Shown here in pieces: positions 9,096-33,578 of a stretch of DNA of 64,000 nt (its first letter is position 1; each line of letters starts with the position of its first letter). The DNA is from Dolichospermum flos-aquae CCAP 1403/13F. GTDB lineage: Bacteria > Cyanobacteriota > Cyanobacteriia > Cyanobacteriales > Nostocaceae. The position numbers and the translations under genes are program-made. The notes below the pieces were generated by a model. That model saw only the letters and a list, made by a program, of their open reading frames with translations. It had not been told where the DNA came from and did no database searches. The DNA lies in assembly GCF_012516395.1 (NCBI RefSeq), contig NZ_CP051206.1, positions 1,426,001-1,490,000 of the forward strand. The letters are read 5' to 3'.

Positions 9096-9780
9096 GTTTT
9101 ATAGAACGGAACTGGATTATAAAATTAAGACAGATTAATAATTGCTATCTCAAGCATGATTCTAACACACAAGCGTTGGTTATTATCTTATTGGTTGGGT
9201 ATCTTAGCTGCTCTTTTATTCAATTCATAAATGAGATAAACATAAAATGCACAATTTTTTAAATTTCAAAAAAGAAAAATTACTGCGTCAATAACTCCCC
9301 CACCGTTCTGATGTTATTGATGATTATTGATTTCAAACAAAGATGCAAAATTATTCTTAGCGTCTTTACGCGAAATTAAATCAGCATATATCAAGTTATT
9401 AGTAAACGAAGTGCTAAAAAATGCTAATGACTCTGCAAAAATTAGCATTGTTAACAAACACTAGCTAATCATAAGCTTAACAGTAACAACCAATAAGTAT
9501 GATGAACACAGTAGCAGAGGGATAAAACCAGAAGTTAATTTTTCCTAGACTTTGGTAAATAGCCATTAAACATAGTTTAACAATGAATTATGGCTAAATT
9601 CTGACTTCTAAATTTTTGCTAAGTTGAAGTAGTTTAAATCATTAAATATTAGAGAAAATAGGGGAAATCAGTAATTAAGCTGCTCACTACAAGCATATCC
9701 TCAATATTCTTAAACTTGACTTTATCTAAACCTAGTGCAATAGTATTACTATATTTTTAGTGGGTAGCCTAATCCAAATT
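9096..9780. other. Intergenic region without recognised gene
   Basis: About 680 AT-rich bases between the tnpB remnant and the riboswitch. The longest plausible frame is a 24-codon hydrophobic one at 9156-9230 with no ribosome-binding site, which I do not accept. The promoter for the riboswitch-usp transcript should lie at the right end of this stretch. Confidence 0.4.
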
Positions 9781-9895
9781 CATGAAAGCTGAATTTGAAG
9801 CGGAGGAACCAAGTATTTGGGGCTAATCTTATGAGAGACACCTTCCAGTCTTAGCCCGTCAGCTAACTCCGTCGGCAATGGAAGGAACCTCCAAA
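9781..9895 (+). promoter_or_regulatory. c-di-AMP riboswitch (ydaO/yuaA class)
   Basis: The conserved blocks of the ydaO/yuaA aptamer are present in order: CGGAGGAACCA at 9801-9811, GGGGCTAATC at 9819-9828, CACCTTCC at 9839-9846, AGCCCGTCAGCTAAC at 9853-9867, CCGTCGGC at 9869-9876, and the closing GAAGGAACC at 9881-9889. It precedes a universal stress protein gene by about 140 bases in the same direction. This class normally turns genes off when c-di-AMP is high and is tied to osmotic and wall stress. GGGGCTTCC near 9925 may belong to the expression platform, but I could not define a terminator. Confidence 0.85.
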
Positions 9896-29202: not shown

Positions 29203-30165
29203 TTAATTGGTACTAGTTGCGGTTTTCGCTTCTAGGTCTTGGAATAAAGGTGTACTTAAATATCTCTCACCGAAACTAGGCTGAATCATCACAATTAAGC
29301 GTCCCTGATTTTCTGGACGTTGGGCGACCCGAACCGCCGCACAAAGGGCTGCACCAGTGGAGATTCCAGACAATAATCCTTCCTCCCTGGCTAATTTGCG
29401 ACCAAAGGCGATCGCATCCTCATCAGTAACCGTAATTACCTCATCAATCAATTCTAACTTTAACACTTGGGGAATAAAACCCGCCCCAATGCCCTGAATT
29501 TTATGGGGACCCGGTTTACCTCCCGATAATATCGGGCTATTAGCTGGTTCGACAGCGATCGCCTGAAAACTCGGTTTCCGGGCCTTCAAAACTTCCGCCA
29601 CCCCCGTAATCGTCCCTCCAGTCCCCACTCCCGCCACAATCATATCCACCAATCCATCCGTATCCTCCCAAATTTCCTCCGCCGTAGTTTCCCGGTGAAT
29701 TTGGGCATTAGCCGGATTGCGGAACTGTTGCAACATATAAGAGTATGGTGTTCTATCCACAAGCTCCTGCGCCCGCCGAATCGCCCCACTCATCCCCGCA
29801 ATTCCCGGAGTGAGTTCCAATTGGGCCCCATAAGCCCTTAACATCGCCCGCCGTTCCGCACTCATCGTTTCCGGCATAGTTAAAATTAATTGATACCCCT
29901 TAGCCGCCGCTGCCATAGCCAAAGCAATCCCAGTATTTCCCGATGTTGGTTCTACCAGAATCGTCTTCCCAGGGGCAATTAATCCTTCCTTTTCCGCCGC
30001 CGTAATCATACTTACCCCAATGCGGTCTTTCACCGATGACGAAGGGTTCATACTTTCCAATTTCACGAGAATTGTAGCCACACAAGCTAATTCTTGAGGA
30101 ATCCGGTTTAGCTTAACTAGAGGTGTCCGCCCCACCAACTCCGTAATATTTTCAACAATCCGCAT
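29203..30165 (-). CDS. cysK: Cysteine synthase A (O-acetylserine sulfhydrylase)
   Basis: A 320-residue PLP enzyme making cysteine from O-acetylserine and sulfide. [13 protein letters not shown] holds the PLP lysine (Lys46), [17 protein letters not shown] is the substrate loop, and [15 protein letters not shown] is the phosphate-binding glycine loop. The C-terminal regulatory part is short, as in CysK/CysM. It is immediately downstream of an Rrf2-family regulator on the same strand. Confidence 0.94.
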
Positions 30166-30182
30166 GATAAATTTTTATGCCT

Positions 30183-30620
30183 TCAAATGTAGTACATGAT
30201 ATCCAACTGCTTCCGGGAATCCCGTTTTTCACAAAGATCCTGAAGCGAATAATTTTGTAACACTGAATTTGCCGCCTGACGTGCTTCTTGCCAAATTTCT
30301 GACACCACAGAATTATCTAAACTTGTGAGGTTAGTATTTTGTTCACCAGTCTGCACATCTAAACCTTCCAAACATTCTAAAATCTCAAAGATACTAATTT
30401 TCCGAGGTTCTCGCGCCAATAAATAGCCGCCTTTTGAACCCCGTTGACTTTTAACTATACCCCCCCGCCGCAAAGTTGCTAACAGTTGTTCTAAATAGCG
30501 ATCAGGTATCTTTTGTTGCAGAGCGATTTGCCGAATTTGCATCGGTTCACCGTTTTCATAATGAGTAGCCATCTCTAATAACGCCAAAATTGCGTATTCA
30601 GATTTACATGATAGTTCCAC
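30183..30620 (-). CDS. Rrf2-family transcriptional regulator (CymR-like)
   Basis: A 145-residue winged-helix regulator: ELSCKSEYAILALLEMATHY, IRQIALQQKIPDRYLEQLL (recognition helix region) and LRRGGIVKSQRGSKGGYLLAREP (wing). I place the start at GTG 30620, which gives the family's normal N-terminus; a longer frame to 30725 runs past the conserved start. The three clustered cysteines that bind Fe-S in IscR are absent, so it is more like CymR or a redox-insensitive member. Its position 17 bases upstream of cysK points to cysteine or sulfur control (inference). Confidence 0.87.
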   Translation of the reverse strand: MELSCKSEYAILALLEMATHYENGEPMQIRQIALQQKIPDRYLEQLLATLRRGGIVKSQRGSKGGYLLAREPRKISIFEILECLEGLDVQTGEQNTNLTSLDNSVVSEIWQEARQAANSVLQNYSLQDLCEKRDSRKQLDIMYYI

Positions 30621-30725
30621 AAGTAATAATCCAAGATGAAAGTTGAAGCATGAAGTTGAGCAAAACCTTACAGTTAATCTCTTTTCCAGTATACTCCGGT
30701 TCTTAACTGGGGTTTTTCTCTCCAC

Positions 30726-30751
30726 AAAAAAACCCCGCCATGAGGCAGGGT
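30726..30751 (-). terminator. Intrinsic terminator of the porin gene
   Basis: On the minus strand ACCCTGCC-TCAT-GGCGGGGT is followed by seven T. It lies 38 bases past the porin stop codon. Confidence 0.85.
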
Positions 30752-30789
30752 CAAATCACGTTGAAACTTATCAACAAACTTTTAACTAT

Positions 30790-32547
30790 TTAGAAGCTAA
30801 AAGTTGTTCTGAGTGTACCAACAAAGGCATCATTACTGGTATTATTTTGTCCAGGAGATGTCATCCAAATAACTCCAGGAGTTACGGATACATTTTCAGA
30901 AACGCGATACTTATAGAAGCCTTCTACTTGGTATGGAGTCTCTCTACCAGTCGCACCTAGTGAGTAAGGTTGAGCGCCACCGAAGATACCCAAGACGTTA
31001 CCTTTCTTACCAAAATCAGGTAAAGCTAAACCTGCACCATAGCTCCAAGCTTCTTTATCATCATTAGCTCCAAAGCCTGTAACATCATGGTAGGAAACGA
31101 AACCACTCAAAGACAGTTTATCGCTAGGCTTGATAGCTGCGGAAATACCGTAGGAGTTGCTGGAAGAGGCACTAGTTGATGGAGCATTGAGAATTGTTCT
31201 GTCCGCACCTAAAGAATTCGCTTGTGAAGTACCTACTAAAGCACCACCATCAAATCCTGAATCAAATAAGCTGCTACCTGCTTTATGATAACCATGTACA
31301 TAAGTAGCAGCCAATGCAACGCGATTACCAACATTAAAGTTCAACTGACCTAATGCCGCATAGTTACCGTCAAACAAGCCATTACTTGGGGCAGGACTAG
31401 CAGCATTTGAGACCGAGTTATTTGAAGCCAAGTAACCTAATGTGATTGAACTTGGTTTCAAGAAACTACTACCAGGTTTACCAAACGGGACATTCAAGGC
31501 AATACCAGAACCACCACCAATCCGGTAGATGGGGTTTTCAGAAGCAAAGGTACTTAAAGCCCCCTTACCACCATCTGTTTTATCAAAGAAGTAAGGATTG
31601 TTAACAGCCGCATAATCACTATGTTGCCCACCACTAGCTGAAAGATAAACTCTTGCAGGTCCTAAAGGAGCTTCATAAGTTAATTTGTCAATTTTAACGC
31701 TGTTAGCAGGAATAGTGCTACCGACTTCAAAGGTTTGCTTACCAACTCCACCAGCATTAATAGGATTACCAGTTTTATCTCGGAGACTAAAGCCTGTGGC
31801 ATTACCAGCAGCCAAACGGGTTGTTAATATATCTCTACCCGTAAAGCTGGTTTCCAAGCCTAAACGGACTCTATCTTGGAATACTGCCCGGTTAGCTTTG
31901 CCTGTTTCGCTGCCAAAAGCATCAGTGACAGCAAAAATAGCTTCACCTTTTAATTTAGTGGTAGTGGAGAATTGATTGGCTTCTAATTCAGCAGTCCGGC
32001 CTTCTAAAGCATCTACCCGGCCACGTAAAGTTGCCAATTCCGCAGAAAACTCTTCTTGCAAACGCTGTAATGTTGCTAGATCCTGTTTTGTCACCATATC
32101 AGCCGTTGCTGTGGCAATCAATTCATTCACACGATCTAAACAAGCATTCAAACCAGCCGCAAATTCGTAACGGCTTAAAGCCCGATTACCACGAAATGTG
32201 CCATTGGGATAACCCGCAATACAGCCGTAGCGTTCAACCAAGGACTGCAAAGCTTGGAATGCCCAATCTGTAGGTTGCACATCAGAGAATTGGGAAACTG
32301 ATGTTACCTGATTTATGGAAGTATTGTTCTCGTTGCTGTAGCGGTTAACCTGAGCTAAAACTTGAGCTTCTTTGGTTTCTGTCGCCAATACTGCTGGCTG
32401 TTGGGAAACTTCTGCTGTAGAGGAAGTTTCAATTGATGATGCTCCCTTGGTGGTACTTGGTGCGGCTATCGCTGTTGAAGATACTAACAACGCTGCTCCC
32501 AAAATTGCTGGGCTAACCACCAGGGATTTCCACAAAATATTAGACAT
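30790..32547 (-). CDS. SLH-domain outer-membrane porin (OprB family)
   Basis: A 585-residue cyanobacterial porin. The signal peptide is MSNILWKSLVVSPAILGAAL to about residue 29. An SLH domain follows (DVQPTDWAFQALQSLVERYG, YPNGTFRGNRALSRYEFAAG) that anchors to peptidoglycan-linked polymer, then a coiled coil (LQRLQEEFSAELATLRGRVDALE), then an OprB beta-barrel ending in VGTLRTTFSF with a terminal Phe, the outer-membrane assembly signal. I chose ATG 32547 behind GAGGAGAAAAGGA; a GTG six codons earlier sits inside that ribosome site. It passes small solutes or ions across the outer membrane; the exact substrate is unknown. Confidence 0.92.
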   Translation of the reverse strand: MSNILWKSLVVSPAILGAALLVSSTAIAAPSTTKGASSIETSSTAEVSQQPAVLATETKEAQVLAQVNRYSNENNTSINQVTSVSQFSDVQPTDWAFQALQSLVERYGCIAGYPNGTFRGNRALSRYEFAAGLNACLDRVNELIATATADMVTKQDLATLQRLQEEFSAELATLRGRVDALEGRTAELEANQFSTTTKLKGEAIFAVTDAFGSETGKANRAVFQDRVRLGLETSFTGRDILTTRLAAGNATGFSLRDKTGNPINAGGVGKQTFEVGSTIPANSVKIDKLTYEAPLGPARVYLSASGGQHSDYAAVNNPYFFDKTDGGKGALSTFASENPIYRIGGGSGIALNVPFGKPGSSFLKPSSITLGYLASNNSVSNAASPAPSNGLFDGNYAALGQLNFNVGNRVALAATYVHGYHKAGSSLFDSGFDGGALVGTSQANSLGADRTILNAPSTSASSSNSYGISAAIKPSDKLSLSGFVSYHDVTGFGANDDKEAWSYGAGLALPDFGKKGNVLGIFGGAQPYSLGATGRETPYQVEGFYKYRVSENVSVTPGVIWMTSPGQNNTSNDAFVGTLRTTFSF

Positions 32548-33248
32548 TTTTCCTTTTCTCCTCACACCTTATATGGATAACATGAGTTCGCTATAGCTAA
32601 CTGTTTACAAACGCGAAGTCTTGTTGAAACCTGTGCAATAGGTATGGCTGACACCAATTCCACAATCATAGCTTTCACAAGGCTAACAATTGATTAATTA
32701 ATCGTTAAACTTCCATGCAATTAACTTATGCAAAAACTTTCTGACCATATCCTGCCATTATATTATAGTTTTTTCTAATAATCAACATAAGATTTTTTGA
32801 TTAAGTAGATGTCAATTTTTCTAGTAGTATATTATTAGTTACACCAAGTAGATTTGACTTCTTTAAACTCATATCGAGCTTTTCTTACACTGAAGATTAG
32901 CGAATAAGCTTCGGCATTGAAGAATTTAGACAGGTTTTGAAATATACTTTCAATCAAAACCTTTCCACATTAATTATCATTTGTTCGCAATGGGTGTTTT
33001 GTTTTCACTCCAAAAACCTGACAAATATAAATGATAGGCGATCGCTAACAAATGTTCCACAACAATAATTTACGTTGGTAATTGTTGTCAGCAAATATCT
33101 AAGTATTGTCTTATGCTACTGGTTAAAAATTACTACTTAGTACCATAAAACAAAATCAAAAAATTAGATCAAACAAGCTTTTTCGGCTTTTTAAATAGTT
33201 AATTCACTGACTCGGTTGTGTACTGGTTTAAACCAAAAACCACCCTTA
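32548..33248. other. Porin upstream region, about 700 bases
   Basis: AT-rich spacer that must contain the porin promoter (minus strand). One HIP1 GCGATCGC is at 33049-33056. No gene or clear RNA is found; a long leader for the porin is possible. Confidence 0.35.
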
Positions 33249-33294
33249 AAAACTATCCGCCCTGATTTAGATCAGATAATCTAAGTCAGGGCGG
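33249..33294 (-). terminator. Strong intrinsic terminator of the unknown small transcript
   Basis: On the minus strand CCGCCCTGA-TTAGAT pairs with ATCTAA-TCAGGGCGG over about 16 bases, followed by ATAGTTTTT. It closes the transcript that begins near 33544. Confidence 0.88.
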
Positions 33295-33544
33295 TCTAGC
33301 GGGTCTTCAAGTTGCAACCAGACTGCCGGAAGGAACTCCGATGTTAAGCCTAGTTAGTTGAGCTAACTTAGTATCTCAAGAGAACTAAAGCTAACTTTTA
33401 GAGAACAGCCCCGGCACACAGCCGGCTAACTGCAACTTGACGACCCATGGGTATACTACTTTCTATCATGGGCATCACCTCCTTATTGCCTAAACGGTCT
33501 TAATTTCAAAAGGGGCAAAGCAAAATGCTTTGGTCTTGTAACCT
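33295..33544 (-). ncRNA. Candidate structured RNA carrying a 23-codon reading frame
   Basis: Between a promoter (33551-33578) and a terminator (33249-33294) the minus strand is densely self-complementary. Outer arms GGGTCGTCAAGTTGCA (33449-33434) and TGCAACTTGAAGACCC (33316-33301) pair (GGGTC/GACCC and CAAGTTGCA/TGCAACTTG). Inside are GTTAG-CTCAA-CTAAC, TTAGTTCTCTTGAGATACTAA and CGGAGTTCCTTCCG hairpins and a CCGG...CCGG element. It does not match tmRNA, RNase P, 6S, SRP RNA or Yfr1 as I know them. The 5' half overlaps a short reading frame with an excellent ribosome site. Confidence 0.6.
33398..33469 (-). CDS. 23-residue peptide with near-perfect Shine-Dalgarno
   Basis: The frame reads MIESSIPMGRQVAV and ends CAGAVL before TAA. 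AAGGAGGTGAT, almost the full anti-16S complement, lies upstream, 8 bases before ATG 33469; an ATG two codons earlier (33475) is too close to it. Codons 9-13 are also the 5' arm of the outer stem of the RNA described at 33295-33544, so ribosome transit would unfold that structure. Function unknown; it could be a leader peptide or a bona fide small protein. Confidence 0.5.
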   Translation of the reverse strand: MIESSIPMGRQVAVSRLCAGAVL

Positions 33545-33550
33545 GAGACT

Positions 33551-33578
33551 ACTATAGCACAACTACAAAAATTTGCAA
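33551..33578 (-). promoter_or_regulatory. Sigma-70-type promoter for the small structured transcript
   Basis: TTGCAA at 33578-33573 and TATAGT at 33556-33551 on the minus strand are separated by 16 bases. The predicted start lies near 33544, about 75 bases before the peptide start codon, and the promoter follows the psbD terminator, so the unit is independent of psbD. Confidence 0.6.

Follow-up and report, generated by a model that had tools for sequence, protein, structure and literature searches.

A short coding frame that is predicted to form one arm of its own messenger's main helix lies on the minus strand of a stretch of DNA from the cyanobacterium Dolichospermum flos-aquae CCAP 1403/13F. 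The stretch, called the window below, is the whole 64,000 nucleotides analysed (contig NZ_CP051206.1, positions 1,426,001 to 1,490,000). The new observation, as read from aligned sequences, is that codons 9-23 of a 23-codon frame are one arm of a long hairpin, the other arm being a conserved 3' segment. The unit is very probably ncl0160, and by its sequence matches the family is spread through the window's taxonomic class.

The unit is ordered as promoter, ribosome site, frame, stem, and terminator with a T run (Table 1). A sequence-only reading of the window had noted the promoter, the ribosome site, a start at ATG 33469, the 23-codon frame, and a strong terminator, and all of these are present. 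Transcription would start near 33544. Promoter-like sites number 5 in 2 kb vs 3.9 +/- 2.3 expected, and the promoter match in the window alone is not above chance; the extended -10 element holds its position throughout the aligned upstream regions, with TGTG in 9 of the 12. In 62 of 86 sequences, a leader motif of the form CC-N(3-5)-AGG lies 5' of the ribosome site; the rest lack it. The same reading had held the unit to be insulated from psbD, and psbD indeed has a separate terminator at 33632-33609. It had also put the porin start 700 bases downstream, which is about right: the porin frame starts at 32565, some 680 bases away. No dehydratase frame was found downstream of the unit in the window.

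Table 1. Parts of the unit, with positions counted in the window
Feature	Position	Strand	Basis or remark
Promoter TTGCAA-16-TATAGT with upstream TG (extended -10)	33551..33578	-	TGNTANNNT in 12/12 aligned loci
Leader motif ACCGTTTAGG	33489..33498	-	between start site and ribosome site
Extended ribosome-binding site AAGGAGGTGAT	33474..33484	-	11 nt complementary to 16S rRNA 3' end
23-codon frame MIESSIPMGRQVAVSRLCAGAVL and stop TAA	33398..33469 (ATG 33469)	-	frame of 23-24 codons in 129/130 loci
5' arm of long hairpin (codon 8 last base to codon 23)	33401..33446	-	RNAalifold
Apical region, variable, sequence unconserved	33339..33400	-	alignment
Conserved 3' arm, predicted partner of frame	33301..33338	-	RNAalifold and pair counts
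Terminator hairpin CTAGACCGC...GCGGATAG, conserved internal loop	33253..33299, T run 33252-33248	-	RNAalifold, shuffles

Evidence that frame and 3' segment pair comes from an alignment of 86 of 130 sequences; the 44 excluded were 10 of the 11 loci without the terminator end motif and 34 near-duplicates, chosen by eye. Compensatory changes, which the sequence-only reading had named as a check, are seen in hairpin and terminator: RNAalifold predicts 47 pairs, 26 of them with two-sided change. These comprise 18 of 30 pairs in the hairpin of frame and 3' segment, 8 of 14 in the terminator, and 0 in three others. The paired part of the frame begins at the third base of codon 8 and extends through codon 23, with a four-base bulge. 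At the base of the stem, GGGTC (33446-33442) faces GACCC (33305-33301); across the alignment this helix is 99.5% paired, with 5 two-sided cells, a result reached by 0 of 500 shuffles. The GCCGGGG/YYCCGGC helix is 99.0% paired with 21 two-sided cells, again reached by 0 of 500 shuffles, and slid versions are 27-68% paired.

These comparisons refine the structure first proposed for the unit. The 16-base outer stem is real and is made up of GGGTC/GACCC, a 2-nt loop, and then 9 pairs; its 5' arm lies at 33446-33431, three bases off the 33449-33434 first given, and faces 33316-33301. Three further hairpins proposed within it are returned by a single-sequence fold, whereas the 86-sequence comparison gives a continuous stem. 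The expectation that translation and folding interfere agrees with the comparison, in which the frame is paired with the 3' segment.

Exchanges between pair types are frequent along the hairpin. Columns 77-324 are AU in 36 sequences, UA in 26, and CG in 6; columns 79-321 are AU in 29 and GC in 27; columns 83-314 are AU in 30, GC in 29, and CG in 5. Pairs that are mostly CG also change on both sides, with CG 70 and UA 12 at columns 90-310, CG 77 and UA 9 at 102-301, and CG 81 and UA 5 at 73-332. The UA form occurs in families f14, f20, f25, f29, and f32 at 102-301 and in families f10, f13, f14, f29, and f32 at 73-332; since each is found in five families, it is probably not one event. The peptide changes along with the pairs: codon 11 alternates between Q and L in step with A-U and U-A at 77/324, and codon 10 becomes F or S where C-G turns to U-A at 73/332 (5 sequences). 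Judged from these substitutions, the exact mid-peptide residues seem secondary to base pairing.

When the excluded sequences are added back, the 34 near-duplicates keep a mean of 29.2 of the 30 pairs and the ten without the terminator motif 25.1, vs 29.0 for the 86. GGGUC/GACCC is complete in just 4 of these ten. Five loci (L099, L120, L121, L122, and L125) have no terminator end motif and an incomplete GGGUC/GACCC and keep GCCGG/CCGGC; they are possibly a partly decayed or altered form. Two other pairings were considered. A T-loop-like hairpin in the 3' segment (P3) is unsupported, with its central pair in 34 of 86 sequences. A GCCCATG/CATGGGT pairing that would hide the start codon keeps its pairs in 77-86 of 86 sequences but shows little two-sided change; it is uninformative and is not claimed. 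A version of it nonetheless entered the covariance model (R1) through a misalignment of GACCC at the end of alignment A2.

The upper stem can be drawn in two ways. A local hairpin inside the frame, CCGGC/GCCGG, is paired in 97.9% of cells; with 5 two-sided cells vs 21 for the long-range helix, it was rejected as the main structure and kept as an alternative fold. In the window, the single-sequence fold contains such a local hairpin, at -57.4 kcal/mol, and the long-range pairing is 2.4 kcal/mol weaker. Constrained energies of the two folds, which are rough, differ by a median of -0.1 kcal/mol over the 86 sequences: the long-range pairing is better by >1 kcal/mol in 37, the two are within 1 in 19, and the local hairpin is better by >1 in 30. 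Of the 14 sequences (out of 86) with U at column 90, 12 form U-A with the long-range partner and 1 does so with the local partner. Two pairings of similar computed energy may leave room for a switch and are not proof of one.

The unit as a whole folds more stably than expected, at -102.3 kcal/mol vs -80.3 +/- 5.0 for shuffles (z -4.4; 1 of 200 shuffles equally low). The z score against shuffles is -4.0 for the stem part and -7.1 for the terminator hairpin, a hairpin that a simple terminator scan did not list. The end motif of the terminator is present in 119 of 130 loci and missing from 11. Within the terminator stem (33253-33299, minus strand), an unpaired GA or CA opposite A is kept (alignment, RNAalifold). 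This internal loop is almost invariant, a conservation greater than plain termination requires.

The ribosome site is set apart by its length. We scored each site by its longest stretch, no more than 20 nt from the start, that matches the complement of the 16S tail, which we take to be AAAGGAGGTGATCC. The window's own site matches over 11 nt; of the 130 loci, 112 reach 10 contiguous nt or more and 120 reach 9 or more. Among 43 other window frames of at least 100 codons, each scored at the best-matching of its many candidate starts, no match is longer than 7, and 5000 random places give none longer than 8. The 11-mer occurs 8 times in the genome vs 6 for its reversed control; thus, it is the placement that is unusual and not the word itself. 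GGAGGTG is invariant in 86 of 86 sequences, and GGAGG is present in 130 of 130 loci.

The frame is kept with similar constancy. It has 23 codons in 117 of 130 loci and 24 in 12; the last, L101, is the sole frameshifted micro-frame, owing to sequencing error or decay. Starts are ATG in 128 loci and GTG in 2, and stops are TAA in 81 and TAG in 49. In the 86 sequences, the third base of the stop is A (55) or G (31) with no C or T, and the column after it is free (A 30, C 33, G 13, T 10). Stops are present in the +1 frame of 103 loci and in the +2 frame of all 130. Lengths differ across loci by whole codons, and the residues RLCAGAVL are nearly fixed at the C terminus of the 23-codon form. A frame of 17 codons occurs in the four loci of family f40, in L173, and in 35 of 35 loci examined in family f41 (of 80 matched genomes); 17-codon frames without RLCAGAVL are found in several lineages. 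A substitution test, also proposed in the sequence-only reading, was weakly positive when alignment columns were shuffled: the frame-0 substitution score was reached by 15 of 300 shuffles and the synonymous fraction by 74 of 300. It covered 85 rows of the alignment (all but L101) and no insertion columns, and base pairing constrains the same letters. The peptide had no match in Pfam or NCBIfam, a result that is uninformative at 23 residues.

The unit is single-copy in its own genome and is conserved well beyond the strain. A DNA match at E <= 0.001 is found in 132 of 148 genomes of the order, representing 73 of 80 genera, which greatly exceeds chance; loci were fetched from 130 of the 132. Across the phylum, a covariance model built from 44 sequences matches 98 of 291 genomes under strict filters, with each match listed within the window's own class. 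The divergent family f36, which we guess to be Gloeobacter-like, is matched in 6 of 6 genomes. Family f41 has small genomes (1.0-4.0 Mb), from which we infer picocyanobacteria of the marine Prochlorococcus/Synechococcus lineage; it gives five weak model matches, and a pattern with at most 3 mismatches matches 80 of 151 genomes, with 0 for the reversed control. Its form keeps GGGUC and partner, a GCGGA/UCCGC helix, GCCG, and a separate terminator-like hairpin. Loci of Microcystis, Hydrococcus, and Synechocystis salina were found with a pattern made for one relative group. A renewed search of 20 match-less genomes (16 at the level of the order and 4 at that of the phylum) with the covariance model and laxer filters was empty throughout, so the unit is dispensable in some lineages. 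Two of the 20 belong to genus g5, in the window's own family (G142 and G330), and are assembled in one and two contigs, which indicates that the unit can indeed be missing. Plasmid and phage DNA gave no match (blastn, one query each).

The sequence-only reading had called the unit unrecognised and knew no family like it. This is not supported, as homologs of ncl0160 that share a conserved frame and have a predicted structure were already published (PMC4734099). That work, based on mapped transcription start sites and predicted terminators of Nostoc sp. PCC 7120, describes ncl0160 of Synechocystis sp. PCC 6803 with 83 homologs among 89 genomes compared, and credits its first report to Mitschke et al. 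2011 (PMC4734099). The homologs have a conserved frame of 23-25 residues, a predicted structure, and a terminator; they start at ATG, rarely GTG, always have a ribosome site, and stop at TAA (47), TAG (34), or TGA (2) (PMC4734099). Frame length, start and stop usage with a ribosome site, and wide spread (132 of 148 genomes in the order) all agree with the present unit. On this close match of features, the two are very probably the same. The marine Prochlorococcus/Synechococcus lineage was left out of the ncl0160 study (PMC4734099), in contrast to the 17-codon form found here in family f41, taken for that lineage. A literature search on the name ncl0160 returned this one paper, whose parts on ncl0160 report no function. 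In addition, a published list of proteins of at most 50 residues starts at 26 residues (PMC5126843), so a 23-residue peptide is missing from it.

Rfam covariance models (6S, tmRNA, SRP, Yfr, and riboswitches) gave no gathering-score match to the unit, in the window or at 10 divergent loci, and ARAGORN found no tmRNA in the window. Elsewhere in the window, Rfam places a c-di-AMP (ydaO/yuaA) riboswitch at 9777-9892 on the plus strand (64.9 bits). Among known cyanobacterial RNAs, Yfr6 of Prochlorococcus is similarly structured and has a conserved small frame, but by its description it is set apart: its frame has 33 residues and begins far into the transcript (PMC1242208, PMC2518516).

The neighbouring genes recur without being constant. 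Upstream, the two nearest called genes include psbD in 38 of 130 loci and a cobB-like gene in 17, counts that are lower bounds as many contigs stop just upstream. Contigs end a few hundred bases upstream at many loci (e.g., L004, L015, and L017), perhaps owing to psbD copies acting as repeats. Downstream, the two nearest called genes, named from Pfam on example proteins, include a pterin-4a-carbinolamine dehydratase in 53 of 130 loci, an SLH/OprB porin in 58, and either in 87. Divergent loci show the same genes: the dehydratase follows at L163 and the SLH porin at L170, while L173 and L177 are flanked, by eye, by psbD and a dehydratase-like frame. With its start codon placed by protein length, the dehydratase starts at most 60 nt from the terminator in 25 of 51 measurable loci and at most 30 nt in 10; there, it is probably expressed by read-through. 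At 20 of 129 loci the next called frame is read from the other strand, though a few such frames are probably spurious; the unit thus needs no gene downstream. The Synechocystis salina locus has the cobB-like gene upstream and a convergent glucose-dehydrogenase-like gene downstream. In the window (29203-32565, minus strand), an Rrf2-type regulator and a cysteine-synthase-like (PALP) gene lie downstream of the porin; at 9 of 130 loci, one of the two nearest called genes downstream of the RNA belongs to cluster c7, which by eye resembles a gene of this region.

The likeliest reading, still tentative, is that the unit is a small mRNA in which translation and folding are mutually exclusive, that is, a ribosome-operated switch. 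Since the conserved stem leaves out the ribosome site, the start codon, and the first codons, ribosomes could load at the exposed site and start. Each elongating ribosome would have to open the hairpin, which begins at frame nucleotide +24, and translation and folding would thereby exclude each other. The two pairings of the upper stem are of similar computed energy, so that both folds may be populated and a passing ribosome would select one or the other. In this manner, ribosome loading or progress on the micro-frame would set the fold and, through it, RNA stability, exposure, or read-through; read-through into the pterin dehydratase, where it starts within 60 bases of the terminator, is one plausible output. 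The changes at codons 10 and 11 in step with their partners, together with the 17-codon frames, argue that the act of translation or the RNA itself matters more than the whole peptide. The sequence-only reading is partly supported: the comparison agrees with a structured RNA that has a conserved frame, promoter, and terminator. Of the two alternatives it had offered, a peptide-controlled regulatory RNA or a small-protein gene with a structured 3' part, either may apply, with the 3' part appearing as the pairing partner of the frame.

Other explanations draw on the same observations. An ordinary small mRNA for a functional micropeptide, its hairpin only protecting the RNA or setting the translation rate, would account for the retention of start, stop, and frame (129 of 130 loci), for lengths that differ by whole codons, and for the nearly fixed RLCAGAVL of the 23-codon form; we consider it rather unlikely, as the residues at codons 10 and 11 track their pairing partners and the frame ends at codon 17, without RLCAGAVL, in several lineages. 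The frame could instead belong to a dual-function small RNA, one that encodes a peptide and pairs in trans with target mRNAs. SgrS/SgrT and SR1/SR1P keep frame and regulatory part in separate stretches, unlike the present unit, where the frame itself supplies one strand of the main conserved helix. Porins are classical targets of small RNAs, and in 58 of 130 loci the unit has the SLH/OprB porin gene nearby; its promoter and terminator, single copy, and varied neighbours also suit this explanation, but the 3' segment is accounted for by its pairing with the frame and few conserved free stretches are left, which makes such a role doubtful. The likeness to SgrS/SgrT and SR1/SR1P, both mentioned in PMC5126843, is that of a small RNA with a short frame.

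A cis-acting leader with an attenuator that acts on the pterin dehydratase and porin genes is improbable, although 87 of 130 loci have one or the other among the two nearest called genes downstream, the dehydratase start is often close to the terminator (<=60 nt in 25 of 51, <=30 nt in 10 of 51), and even divergent loci keep the dehydratase (L163) or the porin (L170). The neighbour is not constant: 20 of 129 loci have a next called frame of opposite orientation (some probably spurious), and the unit in the window is separated from the next gene by about 680 bases. The trp and his leader-peptide attenuators also carry a short frame in a hairpin, with a terminator, and share with some genomes here a close downstream gene; they differ in that the present unit has no regulatory-codon run and no competing antiterminator that we could see, and some loci have no same-strand gene after it. 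An antiterminator pairing of the leader motif with the 3' strand of the terminator was considered by eye and is not claimed. Least credible, and very improbable, is a type I toxin mRNA whose own 3' end silences it. In hok and aapA mRNAs, the coding part pairs over a long range with the 3' end, and the unit shares this pairing as well as a short frame. It differs from them in its single copy and wide conservation, in a ribosome site and start region outside the conserved stem, and in peptides that are not toxin-like, with no obvious membrane segment by eye that would mark a small hydrophobic peptide.

The reading of the unit as a ribosome-operated switch can be carried further, to a class-wide ribosome gauge, an idea that is unlikely as it stands: a 10-12-nt anti-16S site would capture ribosomes; their passage, and not the peptide, would flip a two-state hairpin; and the device would have been kept since early cyanobacterial evolution. 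If true, translation capacity would be read out through a free-standing RNA. The unit is very widely conserved in cyanobacteria. Given the conserved pairing between its frame and 3' end, its long ribosome site, and the porin gene that recurs beside it, what was a catalogue entry becomes a case in which control of RNA folding by translation can be tested, and these features would justify an Rfam family.
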